A stretch of DNA of 64,000 bases. Origin: Rhodoferax sp. Its GTDB lineage: Bacteria > Pseudomonadota > Gammaproteobacteria > Burkholderiales > Burkholderiaceae_C. Every line of letters starts with the position of its first letter. Position 1 is the first letter of the stretch. The stretch covers positions 1-64,000 of the forward strand of contig JARXAM010000027.1 in NCBI GenBank assembly GCA_029865845.1. The letters run 5' to 3'. The position numbers and the translations under genes were made by a program. Under the pieces are notes generated by a model that was given only the letters and a program-made list of their open reading frames with translations, was not told where the DNA came from and made no database searches. Positions 55,299-63,944 of the stretch are shown here, one piece after another.

Positions 55299-56600
55299 AT
55301 GGATTTTTTGCTCATCCTTGTCCTTACCTTGTTGAACGGCGTGTTCGCCATGTCGGAGTTGGCGCTCACCGCCAGCCGCAAAGTACGCTTGCAGACCATG
55401 GTGGAGGCGGGTGACAAAGGAGCCAAGGCGGCGTTGGCCTTGCTGGATAACCCGACGCAGTTTCTTTCCGTCGTGCAAGTGGGCATCACCTCGATTGGCA
55501 TGCTCAATGGTATCGTGGGGGAGGCGGCGTTCAGCGACGGTGTGTCGCAGTGGCTGGAGACGCAGTTCACCTTGTCGCACCGCGTGGCCGAGGTGTCTGC
55601 CACTGCGCTGGTGGTCACCAGCATCACCTTCATTACCATTTTGTTTGGCGAGCTGGTGCCCAAGCGTATCGGGCAGCTGTACCCCGAAACCGTGGCCCGT
55701 GCGCTGGCCATCCCCATGACCTGGGTGGCCACAGGTGCCAAGCCGTTTGTGAAACTGCTGGCCTACGCCACCCATGCCACCTTGCAGTTGTTGCGTCTGA
55801 ACGCCACCGATAACCGTGCGGTAACCGAAGAAGAGATTTCTGCCAGCCTGGAAGAAGGGGTGGACGCCGGCATCATTGAGGAGCACGAGCACCAAATGGT
55901 GCGCAACGTATTTCATCTGGACGACCGCCCTCTCACGAGCATGATGCGGCCCCGGATGGACATTGCGTGGATGGACGCAACGCTGAGCGTGCAAGACGCC
56001 CTGACGCTGGCCGGCGACACCCGCGACGACCGTGGCCACTCTTGGTATCCGGTGTGCCGAGGTTCGCTGGACAACGTGGTGGGCTTGGTGAGTGTGTCGC
56101 GCCTATTGGCCATGGGCGCTGGGTACCCCGGCACGTTGGATTCATTGGCCGAGCCCGCCGTGTTTGTTCCCGAGACGGTGACCGGCATGGAGCTGATTGA
56201 GCAGTTTCGGGTGGAGTCCGCGCGCATGGTGTTTGTGGTGGACGAGTACGGTGTGGTGCAAGGCCTGCTGACGCCCCACGACCTGCTAGAGGCCATTACC
56301 GGCGAACTCCAGCCCGACACCCAAGAGCAAGCCTGGGCGGTGTTGCAGCAAGACGGGCAATGGCTGTTGGATGGCCTGATGCCCGTGGGTGAACTCAAGG
56401 TCCGCTTGGACATCGAAGACGGCTTGCCTGACGAAACACGGCGTCGTTACAACACGGTCGCGGGGCTGCTGATGGCCGTCAGCGGCCAGCTCCCCCAGCC
56501 CGGCGCGCAGATTGCGGTAGGCGGCTGGGTATTTGAGGTGGTTTCTTTGCAGGGACGCCGTATTGACCACGTGCGGGCGCGCCGGCTCCGTACTTCCTGA
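55299..56600 (+). CDS. CNNM/CorC-type membrane protein with CBS domains
   Basis: A 433-residue inner-membrane protein, order: DUF21/CNNM domain of four membrane helices (about 1-180), paired CBS domains (about 195-335, SMMRPRMDIAWMDA and MVFVVDEYGVVQGLLTPHDLLE near 304), and a CorC/HlyC C-terminal domain (about 350-430). Proteins of this class are linked to magnesium and cobalt efflux, though often annotated as hemolysins. The start at 55299 gives the first hydrophobic helix (MDFLLILVLTLLNGVFAMSE). It shares a 24-bp divergent gap with apaH. Confidence 0.92.
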   Translation: MDFLLILVLTLLNGVFAMSELALTASRKVRLQTMVEAGDKGAKAALALLDNPTQFLSVVQVGITSIGMLNGIVGEAAFSDGVSQWLETQFTLSHRVAEVSATALVVTSITFITILFGELVPKRIGQLYPETVARALAIPMTWVATGAKPFVKLLAYATHATLQLLRLNATDNRAVTEEEISASLEEGVDAGIIEEHEHQMVRNVFHLDDRPLTSMMRPRMDIAWMDATLSVQDALTLAGDTRDDRGHSWYPVCRGSLDNVVGLVSVSRLLAMGAGYPGTLDSLAEPAVFVPETVTGMELIEQFRVESARMVFVVDEYGVVQGLLTPHDLLEAITGELQPDTQEQAWAVLQQDGQWLLDGLMPVGELKVRLDIEDGLPDETRRRYNTVAGLLMAVSGQLPQPGAQIAVGGWVFEVVSLQGRRIDHVRARRLRTS

Positions 56601-56731
56601 CCCCCAGCCTCTGCGGGCCATGGGGCACGCCGCCTGCGTGCCATGACCCCTGCGCTAGTCACTAATCCCTGGCGCTAGCCACACCCCCAATGCACCGGGC
56701 AAGTTCCTTGCCCCGCACCCCGTAACTCCGC

Positions 56732-56766
56732 CACCCGTCACCCGTCACCCGTCACCCGTCACCGGT
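56732..56766. repeat. Tandem CACCCGT repeat
   Basis: Four exact copies and one imperfect copy of the 7-bp unit CACCCGT occur head to tail. Such short units can change copy number by slippage, but nothing here shows an effect on gene expression. Confidence 0.85.
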
Positions 56767-56873
56767 GTCATGCGCGAGCGCGGCATAGCACGGCGCGTGC
56801 GCAGGTTTTTCATAGCCCTGCCACACCGACTTGAAAACAACTTAGATTGTTTAAATCGTTTAATTAAACATTC

Positions 56874-56903
56874 TTAACAAAAAAAGCAAATTCAGGATAC
56901 AAT
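56874..56903 (+). promoter_or_regulatory. Sigma70-type promoter of the response regulator cluster
   Basis: TTAACA at 56874-56879 and TACAAT at 56898-56903 are separated by 18 bp, within a strongly A+T-rich stretch. It is the best sigma70-like match in this gap and would start transcription about 20 nt before the regulator start. Confidence 0.7.
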
Positions 56904-56931
56904 TGCGATAAATCAACAAATGGTGATTTAT

Positions 56932-57339
56932 ATGGCAAAAACAATTTTATCGATCGACGACATGCCTGGCATTCGTCGCCTGATCCGCATGACGTTGGAA
57001 TACATGGGCTTTCGGGTGTTGGAGGCAGAGAACGCCGAGACGGGTTTGCTCATGGCCCGGGAACACCGCCCAGACCTGGTGCTGATGGATGTGCGTATGC
57101 CCGGCATATCGGGGGTGGCGGCGTGCGCCGCAATGGGAGAAGACCCCCAGCTCAAGCTCATACCGGTGGTCATGCTGACCTCTGCCGACAGGGCTACCGA
57201 TGTGGCAGCCGGGTTTGCCAGCGGTGCCAAGGCCTACCTGGTGAAGCCTTTTCAACCGATGGAGTTGATCGAGTTGGTCGCCCGTTTGACGCAACCGGCC
57301 GATGGATCCCGGGGTAACGCGGCAAGTGCACCCGGTTGA
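56932..57339 (+). CDS. Single-domain response regulator (CheY-like)
   Basis: A 135-residue protein made of one receiver domain with acidic pair LSIDDMPG near residue 9, phospho-acceptor Asp53 in LVLMDVRMPG, Thr in VMLTSADR near 85 and Lys in AYLVKPFQPME near 107. No output domain is attached, so it must act through a protein partner, as CheY- or Spo0F-like relays do. The ATG at 56932 has GGTGA upstream; ATG 56920 is possible. It begins the run of signal-transduction genes to the window end. Confidence 0.93.
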   Translation: MAKTILSIDDMPGIRRLIRMTLEYMGFRVLEAENAETGLLMAREHRPDLVLMDVRMPGISGVAACAAMGEDPQLKLIPVVMLTSADRATDVAAGFASGAKAYLVKPFQPMELIELVARLTQPADGSRGNAASAPG

Positions 57340-57386
57340 GGCGAGCTGTCACCCTGTCTTAAGTGTGAAAAACGGTTAAAACAAAA

Positions 57387-57400
57387 AGGAGAAACCTCCT
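57387..57400 (+). promoter_or_regulatory. Hairpin masking the ribosome site of the HTH-receiver gene
   Basis: AGGAG at 57387-57391 is the ribosome site and pairs with CTCCT at 57396-57400 around AAAC, ending directly at the ATG at 57401. If formed, it would hide the Shine-Dalgarno sequence, allowing temperature- or translation-dependent control. Confidence 0.45.
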
Positions 57401-57997
57401 ATGACGGTAGAACGCGACGTCCTTACGACCCAGCAAGCCGCCAAGCTGCTCGGCCTGTCCACCACCTCGGTACAAAAAATGGTGATCAATGGGGAGCTGG
57501 ATGCCTGGATCACTCCGGGTGGACACCGGCGCATTTTCCGCAGCAGCGTGGACCAATTGCTGAACTCCCGAAATGCCGGGCTAGCCGGAATTGCCGGAAC
57601 CCGGCCCCTGCGTATTTTGCTGGTGGAAGACGACCCGGTGCAGATCGCCTATTTCAAGGCATTGCTGACGCGCATCGGCCACATCGTGCAACTCACCATC
57701 GTGAGCGAGGCAGCACAAGCCCTGGACCACATTCGCGCACTGCGCCCCGACCTGTTGGTCACGGACCTGGTCATGGAGCCCATGGACGGATTTACCTTGG
57801 TCCGGGCCTTGGGCAACGAACACGGGCTGGACAGCCTGGATGTGATTGCCCTGACCGCGATGACCGCCCAGGAACTGGACGCCGATGACCGGCTTCCCAC
57901 CCGCGTGGTGCGCTACCAAAAGCCCCTGAGTGCGGACCGGCTGTGTGGCTACCTCGATGCCCTCACCGTGCGTCTGCTTCAACCCGCTGTGGGCTAA
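57401..57997 (+). CDS. HTH (MerR/excisionase-like) receiver fusion regulator
   Basis: A 198-residue regulator with inverted architecture. Residues 8-55 form an excisionase/MerR-type DNA-binding domain (TTQQAAKLLGLSTTSVQKMV and PGGHRRIFRSSVDQLL), followed by a receiver with VEDDP near 75, Asp122 in LLVTDLVMEPMDG, Thr152 and Lys174 in RYQKPLS. DNA-binding domains usually follow the receiver, so this order is uncommon. A second protein of the same layout is at 59138, with a histidine kinase between. Confidence 0.9.
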   Translation: MTVERDVLTTQQAAKLLGLSTTSVQKMVINGELDAWITPGGHRRIFRSSVDQLLNSRNAGLAGIAGTRPLRILLVEDDPVQIAYFKALLTRIGHIVQLTIVSEAAQALDHIRALRPDLLVTDLVMEPMDGFTLVRALGNEHGLDSLDVIALTAMTAQELDADDRLPTRVVRYQKPLSADRLCGYLDALTVRLLQPAVG

Positions 57998-58027
57998 GGG
58001 CCCGCTGAACCGCAAAAGGAATCTTCC

Positions 58028-59131
58028 ATGACCAGGCCACGCATTCGTGACACGGCAGTGGGGCCGCACCCCGATGGACTGCCACAGGAAGGAGGCGCGC
58101 TTGCCTTGCGCAACGAAGCGCAGCACTTGTTGCATGTCGCTCCCATCGCCGCATTGATGTGGCGGGCATCTGGCGTGTTGGAGCCTTGTAACCCGTTGGC
58201 ATTGCAGTGGTGGTCCGCGGCCAGTGCGGTCGAGCAGTTGGAGCTGCAACGCTGGTGCCAGTCGGCGGTGGGGGACGTCACCGAGTGCACGCTGCGCTGG
58301 TCGCATGAACAGCACCGGGTGCTGCACGTGCGCAGCCTGCGTATGCCCCACGGTGAGCGTGCACTGTATTTGCAAGACATTACACGCGCCCACGACCTGG
58401 ACCGCGCCAAGTCCGACTTTTTGTCCGCAGCCGCCCACGAGTTGCGCACCCCGTTGGCCAGCATTTACGGCTTTGCCGAGCTGATGTTGCTGCGCAACCT
58501 GCCCCCGGAGCAGCAAAAAGAATTGCTGGGCACCATCCACCGGCAGGCCAAGTCCCTGATTAACCTGATCAATGAACTTTTGGACCTCTCGCGCATCGAT
58601 GCGCGCCAGGGCAAGGACCTGAACATGGCCCCCTGCCGCTTGGCAAGCCTGGTGGACGGCGCGGTGGAGGGCTTGCACATCCGTGCCAACACCCACCAGA
58701 TCACCTGCCATTTGCGCCACGGCGTTGCCACCGTGCTGGCCGACCGGGAGAAGACCCGACAAGCCTTGCTCAATGTGCTGTCCAACGCCGTGAAGTACTC
58801 GCCACGGGGCGGACGCATCACGGTCAGCACTGCACGGCGCGAGGTGCATGGCCACAAACAACTGGGCATCCGCGTGCGTGATGAGGGGCTGGGGATGGAC
58901 GAATCCCAACGCAGCCGCGCATGCGAACGCTTTTATCGCGCCAACCCGTTGGGCGATATCCCCGGAACCGGCCTGGGCCTGAGCCTGGTGCTGGAAAACA
59001 TGCACCTGCAATCGGGCGCGCTGGAGTTGCAAAGCGCGCTTGGCCGGGGCACCACCGTCACGCTGTGGTTTTCAACCCCTCATACCGAGACGGCTGATCC
59101 CCATGGCCCTGTATCCACCACCATGCACTAA
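58028..59131 (+). CDS. Histidine kinase with PAS-like sensor
   Basis: A 367-residue soluble kinase. Residues about 30-120 look PAS-like (LLHVAPIAALMWRASGVLEP) and are followed by HisKA with phospho-acceptor His137 in SAAAHELRTPLASIYGFAEL. The HATPase domain has N-box ALLNVLSNAVKYSPRGG near 245, VRDEGLGMDESQ near 280 and GTGLGLSLVLE near 312. No membrane segment is seen. It lies between two HTH-receiver genes and probably phosphorylates them. Confidence 0.95.
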   Translation: MTRPRIRDTAVGPHPDGLPQEGGALALRNEAQHLLHVAPIAALMWRASGVLEPCNPLALQWWSAASAVEQLELQRWCQSAVGDVTECTLRWSHEQHRVLHVRSLRMPHGERALYLQDITRAHDLDRAKSDFLSAAAHELRTPLASIYGFAELMLLRNLPPEQQKELLGTIHRQAKSLINLINELLDLSRIDARQGKDLNMAPCRLASLVDGAVEGLHIRANTHQITCHLRHGVATVLADREKTRQALLNVLSNAVKYSPRGGRITVSTARREVHGHKQLGIRVRDEGLGMDESQRSRACERFYRANPLGDIPGTGLGLSLVLENMHLQSGALELQSALGRGTTVTLWFSTPHTETADPHGPVSTTMH

Positions 59132-59137
59132 ACCATC

Positions 59138-59749
59138 ATGCGAAAAATACCAAGCAATGAAGAACTGATGACCACCCGCGAAGTGGGTGAGGTCTTGGGC
59201 GTCGCGGTGCGCACCGTGCAACTGTGGGTGGAGTCTGGCGTGTTGCCTGCTTGGCGTACCGCTGGAGGGCACCGGCGCATTGCGCGCAGCGCGGTAGAGC
59301 GGCTGGCGCAGGAGCGCGCAGACATGCTGGCCCCCGTCGTGCACGGGGCTACCGCACCTACCCAGCGCGCGCTTCGCCTGCTGGTGGTGGAAGACGATGC
59401 CGATTTGCGGCACCTGTTTTCCCTGATGGTGGAGGGATGGACTTTTCCGGTGGAGTTGAGCACGGCGGTCGACGGCTTTCAGGGCCTGGTGCGCATTGGA
59501 CAATGGATGCCCGACATGGTGGTCACTGACTTGAACATGCCGGGTATGAACGGTTTCGAGATGGTGCGATCCCTCAAGCGCGCCGGTGCCGATTACGCCG
59601 ATCTGCAAGTGGTCGCCGTAACCGCCTTGAGCGTGCGTGATGTGGCAGACCGGGGCGGCCTGCCCGAAGGCACCGTGCTGTTTCAAAAACCGGTGGACTT
59701 TGCGGCCATCGAGGCCTTGGCCCAAGCCCGCCAGAAAGCCATTCGCTAG
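59138..59749 (+). CDS. Second HTH (MerR/excisionase-like) receiver fusion regulator
   Basis: A 203-residue protein with the same layout as the product at 57401: DNA-binding TTREVGEVLGVAVRTVQLWV and AGGHRRIARSAVERL (residues 12-56), then a receiver with VEDDAD near 84, Asp131 in VVTDLNMPGMNGF, Thr162 and Lys184 in LFQKPVDF. It starts 6 nt after the kinase, so the three genes are one transcript. The two regulators share the GGHRRI motif but differ elsewhere, so they are diverged paralogues. Confidence 0.9.
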   Translation: MRKIPSNEELMTTREVGEVLGVAVRTVQLWVESGVLPAWRTAGGHRRIARSAVERLAQERADMLAPVVHGATAPTQRALRLLVVEDDADLRHLFSLMVEGWTFPVELSTAVDGFQGLVRIGQWMPDMVVTDLNMPGMNGFEMVRSLKRAGADYADLQVVAVTALSVRDVADRGGLPEGTVLFQKPVDFAAIEALAQARQKAIR

Positions 59750-59763
59750 GCGGTGCGGCGTCG

Positions 59764-59790
59764 TTGCAAGCGATTTACCTGCGCTTGCAA
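59764..59790. repeat. Hairpin after the HTH-receiver operon
   Basis: TTGCAAGCG at 59764-59772 pairs with CGCTTGCAA at 59782-59790 around a 9-nt loop, just after the stop at 59749. No T-run follows, so it may be a weak terminator or a transcript end stabiliser. The remaining convergent gap to 60028 has no recognised gene. Confidence 0.5.
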
Positions 59791-60027
59791 GCGCCCGCGC
59801 AAGGCCCGGCGACAGACTTCCGCCACTCCCCTCACCTCACGAAAAAGCGCACTAGCGCTGGTGCCCAGATCGTTGCATGACGGGGTGGCCACTGAGCCTG
59901 CACCGCGCAGGGACGACGCGTGCCGACCCGCGTCACCCCAAAAGTTGCTGGACAACGAGGGTGCACCGGTCGGCGTTAAGCGGGGGAGGGGGCGTGAATG
60001 GCTCAATACCCACCACGCGACAGCGAC

Positions 60028-62589
60028 TTACGCTGACGACGCATGGGCCATCGGAATCCACAAACTTGCGGTAGTACCTTGCCCCAGGCTGCTTTGCAGC
60101 ACCACGCGGCCCTGGTGCAGCTCGGTGATTTCTTTCACCAAACTCAGGCCCAGGCCGGTGCCCGGAATATTGCCCGAGGCATCGGCACGGTAGAAGCGCT
60201 CAAAGGCACGCTCCAGCTGGTCGGGGGTCATGCCGATGCCTTGGTCTGTCACGTCGATCACTGCGTAAGCCTGCCCCTCGTGGGTATGGGGACGCACAGA
60301 CAGTGTGACGTCGCCGCCATGGGGCGAATACTTGAACGCGTTGGCCAGAATGTTGGTCAACGCCAATTGCATTTTTTCGGGGTCCATGAGCACTTGCATG
60401 TCGCTCAGGTCTGCGTGCTGCACCGGGCGGTCGCTGTCGGTCAGCATCAGGCCTTGGATGCTGTTGTTCACCATGTCCCGCAAGGAGTGAGCGGCGATCT
60501 GCATGTCCAGCCCGCCGCGCGATTCGATGCGCGCGAGGTCGAGCAGTTCATTGAGCATCTTCACCAACAGCCCGGACTGCTTGTGGATGGTGCGCAGCAT
60601 GTCGGTCTGTCGCTCTTCGTTGAATTTTCTGCGGGTCAACAACTCAGAGAAGCCAAAAATGCTCACCATGGGTGTGCGCAGTTCGTGCGCTGCGGCGGTC
60701 AAAAACTCGCTCTTCATCCGGTCGACCTGGTCTTCGTGGGTGACATCGCGGAAGTACAAAATGGTTTCTTCCCGGCCCGCATCGTTGTTGCGCGACCGCG
60801 CCTGCACCACCCGCCGCTGGGGCCGCGCCAGTTGCAGTTTGGCCTCCCATGTGGCGTCGGTGCGAAGGGTGCGCATGGGGGGCAGCGGTTGCGATTCGTC
60901 ACACAGTCCGAGCAGTGCTTGCTCAAACTGGGCCAAGGTCACATGGGCGTGGGTCAGCATGCCCAAGCCGGTCATGCGGTCAAAGGCCGGGTTGGAAAAC
61001 ACGAGCTGGTCGTTGCCATCGAGCATCACAAAGCCGTCGGGGCTGAGGCTGAAAATGGCATCGAGCTGCGCCCGTCGCTCAGCCATCGCTGCCTCGGCCT
61101 GCACCCGCGCGGTGATGTCTGACACGATGCCCACAAAGTGCGTTAGCGTGCCCTTGTCAGACAGCACCGGGGAGAGCGACACCTCGGCAATCTGCATCAC
61201 ACCGTTGTCGAGTTCGCGGTGAATGGTCACGTTGGCATTGCGGTGCTCGCGCACGGCCTCGGTCAGCTCGCGCACACCCGGATCGTCTGCATTTTTGCCG
61301 CGCAGCAGGGCCAGGCTTTCGCCCAATATGTCCCAGCGGGGCAGGTTCACAAACCGCTGGAATGCGTCGTTGATGTACACGATGGGGTGGTGGTCCATCT
61401 TTCCGTTGGTGATAAACACCGCGTTGTGGCTGCTGGCCAGTGCGCGTTCGTACAGCTCGGAGGTTTCTTGTGCCGCACGCTCGTCGGTCAGGTCGCGCAC
61501 GATGCAGGCATAGCGCAGGGTGGTGTCGTTTTTGACCTCGCCCAAACACACCTCTACCGGGAACAGAGTGCCGTCTGCGCGGGTGCCCATGAAGTCGTGC
61601 CGGGTGACACGGCTGATGCTCAGTACATGCTCCATGCCCTGGCCAAACATCTCGTGCAGGGCCGCTTGCGTGAGGTCGGGCACACAGCAGTCCACAGGCT
61701 GGCCCAGCAGCTCCGACTCCGCGCGGCCAAACACGCTGGTGGCGGCGGGGTTGACGGTGGCGATGCGACCAAATTCGTCCAAACCCAAGATGGCCTCGGC
61801 CGCCGTATTCACAATGGCCTGAACGCGGTTCACCTGGGCGGCCATGCCCCGGCTGGCCTGGTTGATAGCGGCTTGCAGCAAGCTCACCTCACGGCTCGCT
61901 TGGGGAAGAAACACCTCGTCCCCCATGCGCAAGGGAATTTGGGCGGCAAATTCGGTGAGTTCCCGCACCGGTGACAGCGCCTTGCGAATCACCAGGTGCA
62001 GGCACAGTAATACCACCAGCGTGAGCGAAAAAGCCAGGGCCAGCGACTGCTTCCATTGGCGTTGCAACTCCAAATTGCGCGCGCTCAGGTTGTAGTCCAC
62101 CCGGACCCAGACGTTGTGCAAGGCGTGCTCGGGGTCCACTTCTTGCCAGGCGGTCAAGTAGCCGTGTTCTTCGCCGCCGGGTGGCAAGGTGGCGGTGGTC
62201 CCGGTGGCGGGCAAGTGTGCTCCGGTGTCCACATGCACGCTGTCGCCATCGCGGTGCACCTCCATGAGGTTGGTGCCATCGGGGCGGTAGATGCTGATGC
62301 GCTCAATAAACGGCAACTGCACTGCGTCAATAGCGTGGGATTGCAGGCTGTCCAAGCGTTCTACCAGCAAGGCCGCCGAACTGTTGCCTGCCACCATGCG
62401 CGCCACAGACTCCGCGTGGGAGAGCGCGGTGCGCAGCGTGTCTTGGGCAATCCGGTGGTAGGCGTATGCGCCACTGAGCAGGGTGAGCACCAGCATGACC
62501 ACCAGCGTGGTGGTCATGATGATGGCGCCAATGCTGAAGCTCACCCGCGTGGGGCGACGCAGCCAATGCCACGCGGCGGACAGGCTCAT
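60028..62589 (-). CDS. Membrane histidine kinase with PAS domains
   Basis: An 853-residue sensor kinase. A membrane helix (about 17-43) and a second (about 180-205) flank a periplasmic domain; a HAMP-like segment then follows. About three PAS domains fill 250-600 (IVNTAAEAILGLDEFGRIATV near 262; AIFSLSPDGFVMLDGNDQLV near 510). HisKA has His near 631 in TAAAHELRTPMVSIFGFSEL, followed by HATPase with LTNILANAFKYSPHGG near 740 and GTGLGLSLVKEI. It is convergent with the HTH-receiver operon and followed in the direction of reading by no further gene. Signal unknown. Confidence 0.95.
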   Translation of the reverse strand: MSLSAAWHWLRRPTRVSFSIGAIIMTTTLVVMLVLTLLSGAYAYHRIAQDTLRTALSHAESVARMVAGNSSAALLVERLDSLQSHAIDAVQLPFIERISIYRPDGTNLMEVHRDGDSVHVDTGAHLPATGTTATLPPGGEEHGYLTAWQEVDPEHALHNVWVRVDYNLSARNLELQRQWKQSLALAFSLTLVVLLCLHLVIRKALSPVRELTEFAAQIPLRMGDEVFLPQASREVSLLQAAINQASRGMAAQVNRVQAIVNTAAEAILGLDEFGRIATVNPAATSVFGRAESELLGQPVDCCVPDLTQAALHEMFGQGMEHVLSISRVTRHDFMGTRADGTLFPVEVCLGEVKNDTTLRYACIVRDLTDERAAQETSELYERALASSHNAVFITNGKMDHHPIVYINDAFQRFVNLPRWDILGESLALLRGKNADDPGVRELTEAVREHRNANVTIHRELDNGVMQIAEVSLSPVLSDKGTLTHFVGIVSDITARVQAEAAMAERRAQLDAIFSLSPDGFVMLDGNDQLVFSNPAFDRMTGLGMLTHAHVTLAQFEQALLGLCDESQPLPPMRTLRTDATWEAKLQLARPQRRVVQARSRNNDAGREETILYFRDVTHEDQVDRMKSEFLTAAAHELRTPMVSIFGFSELLTRRKFNEERQTDMLRTIHKQSGLLVKMLNELLDLARIESRGGLDMQIAAHSLRDMVNNSIQGLMLTDSDRPVQHADLSDMQVLMDPEKMQLALTNILANAFKYSPHGGDVTLSVRPHTHEGQAYAVIDVTDQGIGMTPDQLERAFERFYRADASGNIPGTGLGLSLVKEITELHQGRVVLQSSLGQGTTASLWIPMAHASSA

Positions 62590-62601: not shown

Positions 62602-62973
62602 TCAGGGGACGAGACGGTCCACCGTATCGAGCAACTCGATGGGGCTGAAGGGCTTGACGAGGTAGGCATCGCAGCCCGCCGCGTGGCCGCGCTCAATGTC
62701 GGTTTTTTGGCCGCGCGCCGTCAGCAAAATCACCTTGGTTTGTGCGGCCAGTGTGGGGTCTGCTTTGACCTTTTCGCACACCTGGTAGCCGTCGAGTGCG
62801 CCGGGCATCATCACGTCCAGCAAGATCAGTTGCGGGCGCAGCTTCTGCGCCACTGTCCATGCAGTCTCGCCGTTGTCGGCTTCGTAGAGGTCAAAGTCTT
62901 CGCTCTCCATGGTCATCATGATGAGTTTGCGGATGTCGGGCTGGTCGTCCACGATCAGAGCTTTGCGTTTCAT
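62602..62973 (-). CDS. Single-domain response regulator (CheY-like)
   Basis: A 123-residue receiver-only protein: ALIVDDQPD near residue 9, Asp53 in LLDVMMPG, Thr in ILLTARGQ near 84 and Lys in AYLVKPFSPIELL near 106. It lies 12 nt upstream of the membrane kinase start and overlaps the next upstream gene by 4 nt, so all three form one transcript. It is likely an intermediate or target in a relay with these two kinases. Confidence 0.94.
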   Translation of the reverse strand: MKRKALIVDDQPDIRKLIMMTMESEDFDLYEADNGETAWTVAQKLRPQLILLDVMMPGALDGYQVCEKVKADPTLAAQTKVILLTARGQKTDIERGHAAGCDAYLVKPFSPIELLDTVDRLVP

Positions 62974-63944
62974 GTTGCATCTTCCTTTTTGCGACGTTGC
63001 ATCAGTTGGGCCAGGTCAGCCGCATAGCGCTGGGCCTGTTCCATATCTAGGTTGGCCTGCCCGCGCTGTGGCGCGCCGGTGGGAAATTCGATCATCACGC
63101 GCGTGTCTTCGCCGTCCACGATGGACATGCGCATGTTCCCCCCATGCAAGCCCACGATCCGGTTGACCAGTGGCAAGCCCAGGCGTCCGTTGGCATGGTT
63201 GGGGTTGCGCGCTGCAAACAGGTCGCGGGTTTCGATGCCCTTATCTTCTGGCGCGATCGCCCCTTGGTTGCGCACACTGATCAGCACATGCTCGCCGGTG
63301 AGCGTGTAGCCAATCTGCACCACACAGTCCAGCCCCCCTTTGACTTCGCGGCGCGAGTGGGTGAGGGCGTTGTCAAAGCACTCGTACAAGGCCCGCTTGA
63401 TCAAGCGCGCATTGCCGTAAATGGGAGGCAGTGTGCCGTTGGGGGGCTTGACCTCGAACCGCACTTTGGCCTGGGTCGCTTTGGGGCGCAGGTCACCCAG
63501 CGTTTGGTCCACCAAGGCCCCCAGGTCCATGCGATCGTCCATCAACATGGCCTCTTCGCCAAACACGGCCAACAAGTCAGCCAAGCGGCGCAGGCGTTCC
63601 TTGAGCTCGTCTGCCGCGAGTTCGAGCCGGTTCCCTTCGTCACTTTCTGGCAAAGACCCCAGCATGCCCGTCAGCTTGCGCATGGGGGGGCCGACTTCGT
63701 CTTGCAGCAGCTCGATGATTTGCTCCAGGCCCATGCGGCTTTGCACTCCGGGGCCCGCATGCGCCTCTTCCTCGGGCTCGGGCGGGGCCGCCACAAAGGC
63801 AATGTCCAAGCCCGAGGGGCCTGCCATGAATATGCCCTTGAGTTTCTTCCCGTCTGCTACGCCCACCTCGGCGGCATAGGGCAGCTTGATCTTTCCCAGT
63901 GTGATGGCTTGTGCGAGGTTTTTGATCACGATGCGCCCGCTCAT
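62970..63944 (-). CDS. HATPase-domain kinase with degenerate H-box
   Basis: A 324-residue or longer protein with a C-terminal HATPase fold (RALYECFDNALTHSRR near 196, RLGLPLVNRIVGLHGG near 260). The HisKA-like helix reads QDEVGPPMRK near residue 82, where canonical H-boxes have HELRTPL; Asp replaces the phospho-acceptor His. It may therefore act on another protein's His, or as a phosphatase. The frame stays open to the right edge (upstream residues read ATFANRAARIHTGKPVEA), so the true start may lie outside the window and 63944 may be internal. Confidence 0.8.
   Translation of the reverse strand: MSGRIVIKNLAQAITLGKIKLPYAAEVGVADGKKLKGIFMAGPSGLDIAFVAAPPEPEEEAHAGPGVQSRMGLEQIIELLQDEVGPPMRKLTGMLGSLPESDEGNRLELAADELKERLRRLADLLAVFGEEAMLMDDRMDLGALVDQTLGDLRPKATQAKVRFEVKPPNGTLPPIYGNARLIKRALYECFDNALTHSRREVKGGLDCVVQIGYTLTGEHVLISVRNQGAIAPEDKGIETRDLFAARNPNHANGRLGLPLVNRIVGLHGGNMRMSIVDGEDTRVMIEFPTGAPQRGQANLDMEQAQRYAADLAQLMQRRKKEDAT

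Follow-up and report, generated by a model that had tools for sequence, protein, structure and literature searches.

Two deeply split HTH-receiver regulators flank a histidine kinase in a two-kinase island of Rhodoferax

BldC of Streptomyces (structure codes 6ama and 6amk) is described as a protein with a MerR-like winged helix-turn-helix (wHTH) that binds 9-bp direct repeats head to tail, touching the DNA with His46, Arg47 and Arg48 of the wing and with Arg30 and Trp31 of the recognition helix; the same paper assigns classical MerR regulators a coiled coil or an effector domain at the C-terminus (PMC5859096). In LtrK/LtrR of the archaeon Methanococcoides burtonii, the HTH comes before the receiver (REC), and LtrR accepts phosphate from its kinase in vitro (PMC4823666, PMC5847659). 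The CmrRST system of Clostridioides difficile places one kinase and two DNA-binding regulators with distinct roles in one operon (PMC12548384). The Rhodoferax locus described here has something in common with each of these.

The island and its genes

The window, by which we mean the whole 64,000-nt stretch analysed, comes from an assembly of 2.74 Mb that is 75.8% complete. Its + strand carries the regulator RR1 (57401–57997), the histidine kinase HK (58028–59131) and the regulator RR2 (59138–59749). A first-pass annotation had seen in these three ORFs a kinase between two regulators with the DNA-binding domain N-terminal to the receiver, and both the ORF list, which has all three at the coordinates it gave, and the order of the Pfam domains bear this out. 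It left out REC0 (56920–57339, +; ORF and Pfam), a stand-alone receiver 61 nt upstream of RR1. The order on the + strand is REC0-RR1-HK-RR2, with gaps of 61, 30 and 6 nt, and the four genes are predicted to form an operon, the short RR1-HK and HK-RR2 gaps being those expected of one transcript. The membership of REC0 is less sure, since an orthologue (68–71%) stands upstream of RR1, at larger distances, in only three of the 11 other loci with this cluster. A sigma70-like promoter is placed upstream of REC0 (56874–56903, +) by consensus match only (10 of 12 positions); it is the one such site on the + strand of 56500–60100, and the two strands together have two, against 0.6 expected. Terminator-like + strand sites at 58398 (in HK) and 59398 (in RR2) were disregarded (six sites in all, 3.8 expected).

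Three genes on the – strand converge on RR2: PASHK (60028–62589), a multi-PAS sensor kinase by Pfam, with a catalytic half 47% identical to HK; REC3 (62602–62973), a stand-alone receiver by Pfam and the best conserved of the genes compared; and HK4 (62970–63944), a HATPase_c protein without a HisKA match, whose full 371-aa ORF runs past the end of the window. Because this set is convergent with RR2, the genes RR1, HK and RR2 are part of a larger island, in which four receivers are accompanied by two HisKA kinases and by the HATPase protein HK4. The single transcript of the first-pass annotation agrees with the 30- and 6-nt gaps, but its one kinase has a relative next door. Hydrophobic N-terminal segments, read by eye, suggest that PASHK is a membrane sensor, whereas HK appears by the same reading to have no membrane segment. 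HK4 (full ORF L276:471–1586) is kept beside REC3 in all 10 cluster loci whose sequence reaches that far, the window included, and is possibly a pseudokinase or a phosphatase-like partner.

In RR1, HTH_17 (residues 7–57) is followed by Response_reg (72–181), and in RR2 the same domains occupy residues 10–60 and 82–192, all above the curated Pfam cut-offs. Both receivers have the acidic pair, phospho-Asp, Thr/Ser and Lys of the response regulator fold; with these intact, a pseudoreceiver reading was ruled out for either protein. The coiled coil or effector domain of classical MerR proteins is absent, and the receiver fills the C-terminus. As for the HTH, earlier assigned to a MerR/excisionase type, the second half of that name suits both proteins: besides HTH_17, they match TIGR01764 ‘excise’ at 46.8 (RR1) and 50.2 bits (RR2) against a cut-off of 28.8, though this is a domain-level name and implies no excisionase role. 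The first half suits RR2, which passes the Pfam MerR (30.2 against 28.2) and MerR_1 cut-offs, whereas RR1 has no match to the MerR model at E 0.01. At 26.2 (RR1) and 43.5 bits (RR2), both fall below the 77-bit cut-off of the NCBI HTH_BldC subfamily. An AlphaFold model of RR2 (mean pLDDT 83.8) has a winged HTH at residues 13–62 (helices 13–20, 24–33 and 50–62, with a beta wing) and then a receiver at 79–202 with a short fourth helix (166–171); the best 50 matches listed by a structure search with it are mostly response-regulator receivers.

HK has the H box, N box and G boxes of a HisKA sensor kinase, with HisKA at residues 127–192 and HATPase_c at 239–349, both above curated Pfam cut-offs. Its model is weaker than that of RR2 (pLDDT 70.7, pTM 0.45). 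WalK, YycG and HK853 are among the best structure matches, and the best two, WalK (9a5d) and 4i5s, both of which we take to carry PAS domains, align over some 350 columns. In the model, the N-terminal part has an alpha/beta make-up that looks PAS-like; Pfam reports no PAS there.

Conservation and distribution

Orthologues of RR1 (78–89% identity) and RR2 (80–89%) occur together in at least 12 other genomes among the 100 of the genus that were searched, so the cluster is not a chance arrangement. With the window’s own, this makes 13 cluster genomes, two of which (G179 and G169) have some of the pieces on separate contigs. Twelve have an HK orthologue, one of them broken (G193), and in 11 the HK frame is open over 345–405 aa. 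Rhodoferax bucti GSA243-2 (G183) is the only relative without HK outright: a genome search and a reading of the locus itself found no HK orthologue, and the only HK match at 1e-60 is PASHK. There RR1 and RR2 lie 42 nt apart with no HK between them, and PASHK-REC3-HK4 is in place. PASHK orthologues at 70% or more are found in the same 13 genomes, all of which also have RR3, an orphan regulator 59–62% identical to RR1. The modules are not tied to one another, for many RR2 orthologues occur without PASHK, and G196 has PASHK without RR2. The island of R. bucti goes on, at L122:14134–16473, with a HisKA-HATPase-REC-Hpt hybrid kinase and then a REC-HisKA-HATPase protein; past the window’s end, at L276:2344–4689, is an ORF of similar length and place. 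In G193 (L274), the HK frame is broken in its N-terminal part and a TAG lies inside RR2, which could be decay or assembly error.

Conservation was compared over 12 cluster loci, with G179, split over two contigs, set aside. HK falls short of RR2 in conservation in all 55 genome pairs, of RR1 in 53 of 55, of PASHK in 45 of 45, and of REC3 and of HK4 in 36 of 36 each. These full-length figures draw on HK from 11 loci, and on RR2 rows that are incomplete in G169 (assembly gap) and G193 (short ORF). The low conservation is due in part to a variable N-terminus. For the catalytic half alone (10 loci, the broken G193 copy being dropped), HK is below PASHK’s catalytic half in 33 of 36 pairs, below RR1 in 39 of 45 and below RR2 in 40 of 45. 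REC0, with a median of 0.707 over six pairs, stands outside this pair-by-pair comparison with HK.

Regulators of this kind are widespread. RR1 has matches at 1e-15 in at least 46 of 150 genomes of the family, the window’s included, and RR2 at 1e-18 in at least 54 of 397 genomes of Pseudomonadota, one of them (G520) by its receiver only. Matches that start in the HTH remain in at least 53 of the 397, again counting the window’s; such regulators are not rare, although the DNA-binding type had been called uncommon. The searches scored the best candidates of each genome (eight for RR2 in Pseudomonadota, about 20 for RR1 in the family and for HK), and their counts and absences are lower bounds. Several arrangements recur. 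A second kinase sandwich, HTH_17-REC, HisKA kinase and HTH_17-REC on one strand, lies at L239:7071–10387 in a genome of the genus (G225); HTH-receiver regulators stand in divergent pairs in G157, G162 and G174; and in two Methylobacillus loci (L161, L162) an HTH-receiver gene is accompanied by a PAS-kinase-like gene and a divergent REC3-like gene. RR3 (L035:9843–10517 and L134–L139) is immediately followed, in the same orientation, by a DEAD-box helicase gene in seven of seven loci, and RR1-type regulators are directly 3′ of dprA, on the same strand, in nine of nine such loci of small genus genomes (L142–L149, L152); for each set, Pfam was run on two loci. The adjoining helicases raise the idea of a link between this family and cold response.

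Ancestry and predicted specificities of the regulators

A tree of 130 HTH-receiver sequences was built from 165 matches after identical trimmed sequences had been removed, admitting only those that span RR1 or RR2 from residue 20 or before to residue 150 or beyond. In it RR1 and RR2, which share 38% identity, split deeply. The two are paralogues, as first supposed, and the depth of the split together with the low identity rules out a recent tandem duplication. RR1 belongs to a clade of 44 rows (support 100/99) with RR3, the dprA-adjacent regulators of small genus genomes and a few others; RR2 belongs to one of 28 rows whose members stand alone or beside kinases. Four more distant rows join the RR1 clade, three of which (L037, L038 and L041) are near kinases, so the kinase-free state is not at the root of the RR1 branch.

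Proximity to kinases was counted at the 77 loci flanked on each side by 4.5 kb or more, L133 and L127 being scored as near one. Outside the cluster, none of 20 RR1-clade loci has a kinase within 4.5 kb. Among other HTH-receiver loci the figure is 24 of 29, or 24 of 40 once 11 loci of lone RR2 orthologues are added; all 11 are without a kinase within that distance, as befits a set chosen for standing alone. In several members of the genus, lone RR2 orthologues end the order DEAD-box helicase, metallophosphatase, CNNM/CBS protein, DUF218, RR2. To the left of the cluster, the window has a helicase gene and a CNNM/CBS gene that fall in the same clusters as their counterparts at those loci, and HK and RR1 thus appear to be sited where RR2 stands alone elsewhere. 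In a quick tree of 46 kinases, made without bootstrap, the nearest neighbour of the HK clade is the kinase of G048, a genome of another genus (SH-aLRT 96), and 98 nt separate that kinase from the RR2 orthologue (66% identity) downstream of it. The RR1 query found no second HTH-receiver gene in G048 (86% complete) at 1e-15, and no RR1 orthologue was found there. From the two trees we infer that HK-RR2 may be the older pair and RR1 the newcomer. Database searches make a mobile origin less likely: at 1e-10 none of 50,697 phage records matches RR1, and the four matches of RR2 in 72,556 plasmid records at 1e-15 are all below 60% identity.

Across the 130 sequences, the phospho-acceptor Asp is kept in 127, the Lys in 129 and the Thr/Ser in all; the wing positions G, H, R and R are kept in 130, 129, 122 and 130. 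Two RR1-like regulators on smaller contigs, L140:7308–7973 (G243) and L141:7425–8090 (G215), are among the four that lack Asp or Lys, and are possible pseudoreceivers. With small variations in some orthologues, RR1 and RR3 have in common the recognition helix STTSVQKMVI[NS]GEL, the wing TPGGHRRIFR and the first receiver helix DDPVQ[IV]A[YF]F[KQ]ALL. RR2 of the window has, instead, the recognition helix AVRTVQLWVESGVL, the wing TAGGHRRIAR and receiver helix 1 DDADLRHLF, like those of its orthologues elsewhere. Of the BldC contacts, RR2 retains those of the wing and Trp31, with Leu in place of Arg30, whereas RR1, aligned to BldC through RR2, has Lys and Met for Arg30 and Trp31, and for this reason different DNA sites are predicted for the two. 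Of four receiver positions that were rewired in RR468 (V13, L14, I17 and N21; PDB title 4jav), three differ between RR1 and RR2, on a mapping that we take to hold for both. Judged by these residues, RR1 and RR2 probably differ in both kinase affinity and DNA target.

The two kinases, on the other hand, look much alike where they would dock. HK and PASHK agree at four of the five kinase positions in the titles of 4jas and 4jau (S, G, L and H; A versus S), which were placed by hand, counting residues from the phosphorylated His and assuming no gaps; the two kinases also have the H box and most residues of helix 1 in common. Having nearly the same docking residues, they probably see the same receivers, and this would explain why HK can be lost.

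A candidate operator is a 9-bp direct repeat upstream of the predicted promoter, ATTGTTTAA followed by ATCGTTTAA (56846–56863; no strand assigned), in which 8 of 9 positions are equal and whose unit has the length of the BldC repeat. Scans of promoters for repeats yielded no clear operator: of 20 tests, only those on the RR1 set and on the window operon reached z 2.5, each at a spacing of 9, and with z 2.5 among 20 tests set by score the repeat is a weak lead. For an operator common to RR1 and RR3, neither the repeat scans nor alignments of the upstream regions offered a convincing candidate.

Competing explanations and known systems

The explanation we prefer, tentatively and at a little under an even chance, is a two-kinase network with separate outputs, in which RR2 is the older kinase partner and RR1 a second output recruited later. 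The phospho-signalling operon REC0-RR1-HK-RR2 would be joined to the convergent PASHK-REC3-HK4 unit. HK, with the PAS-like input of its model, and PASHK, the putative membrane sensor, would autophosphorylate, and both would pass phosphate to the same receivers. Phosphorylation of a receiver would free or dimerise the N-terminal wHTH, and the regulator would then bind its own sites: RR2, the older DNA-binding partner of this kinase family, those of one regulon, and RR1, taken from a kinase-unlinked clade, those of another that probably overlaps RR3’s. HK would be an exchangeable second input, dispensable while PASHK remains. What tells against such a network is that the co-inheritance of RR2 and HK fits an HK that serves RR2 alone. 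RR1 would then ride along for co-expression, taking its phosphate from an unlinked kinase that also serves RR3, or working free of phosphorylation. HK and RR2 are paired without RR1 in G048, receiver helix 1 of RR1 nearly equals that of RR3, and the RR1-clade regulators outside the cluster are kinase-unlinked, 20 out of 20; with its helix of the kinase-unlinked type, RR1 may have its true phospho-donor elsewhere. We nevertheless think this somewhat unlikely, for RR1 is directly upstream of HK in 11 of the 11 cluster loci at hand that have HK (one broken), and keeps its phosphorylation residues in 12 of 12 aligned cluster sequences.

In the first-pass annotation HK was the sole kinase of both regulators, which branched from it or competed for it or for shared DNA sites. 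The operon layout, the two intact receivers and the precedent of cmrRST (PMC12548384) are all in its favor. Branching still fits; competition at shared sites is improbable given recognition helices that differ, with RR1 matching RR3, and receiver helix 1 differs too. A single kinase, moreover, does not account for R. bucti, which keeps both regulators intact without HK, nor for the related PASHK next door, and as a whole the proposal now looks decidedly unlikely. Most doubtful of all is that HK is a decaying relic and the regulators orphans that receive phosphate from PASHK, from other kinases or from acetyl phosphate. HK is less conserved than its neighbours, missing in R. bucti and broken in G193, and the 11 RR2 orthologues chosen as lone do stand without a kinase within 4.5 kb; but the H, N and G boxes are intact in the window and five other aligned sequences, and the frame is open in 11 of the 13 cluster genomes. 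A bolder extension of the network, quite unlikely as matters stand, would make RR1, RR2 and their kin phospho-switched, BldC-like filament formers of different specificity on 9-bp direct repeats such as 56846–56863, all in one two-kinase hub, with the receiver and its short fourth helix turning on head-to-tail assembly of the wHTH. DNA coating would then be graded, variable in length and under kinase control.

HTH-receiver regulators whose HTH is of the excisionase/BldC type occur across Pseudomonadota. Since close relatives variously have the kinase, a broken copy of it or none, this locus is a natural experiment, in which the acquisition of a second output by a two-component system can be studied cleanly. 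Among the literature matches listed, we found no bacterial regulator of this type with a tested function, though a published description may exist, and no pair of unlike ones around an expendable kinase. EmbRS of Rubrivivax was set aside as a comparison, EmbR being LuxR-type, and the P2RP text consulted had no bearing on regulators of the HTH_17 kind.

By sequence, the closest solved HTH to that of RR2 is BldC’s (6ama, E 1.8e-6; 6amk, E 1.8e-5), whereas a PDB search with RR1 at E 0.1 brought up no BldC match. RR2 and BldC both have the GG-H-R-R wing, the His and two Arg of which contact DNA in BldC; BldC has no receiver, and RR1 and RR2 each have one. The chain of PDB 3cnb, ‘DNA-binding response regulator, merR family’, aligns with residues 79–194 of RR2; its 143 residues match the receiver part only, but the name implies that a MerR-type DNA-binding response regulator had already been recognised. 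The sandwich in G225 repeats the gene order of the window, with HTH-receiver proteins of other subfamilies, outside the RR1 and RR2 clades, and a kinase of 719 aa with PAS and a dCache-like domain. LtrR, likened here by domain order, is archaeal. The CmrRST regulators are of the OmpR family, and one of them, CmrT, is likely a pseudoreceiver; by contrast, the active site is intact in both RR1 and RR2. The HTH-receiver order, the receiver of a MerR-family response regulator, and one kinase with two regulators in an operon are, then, already known.
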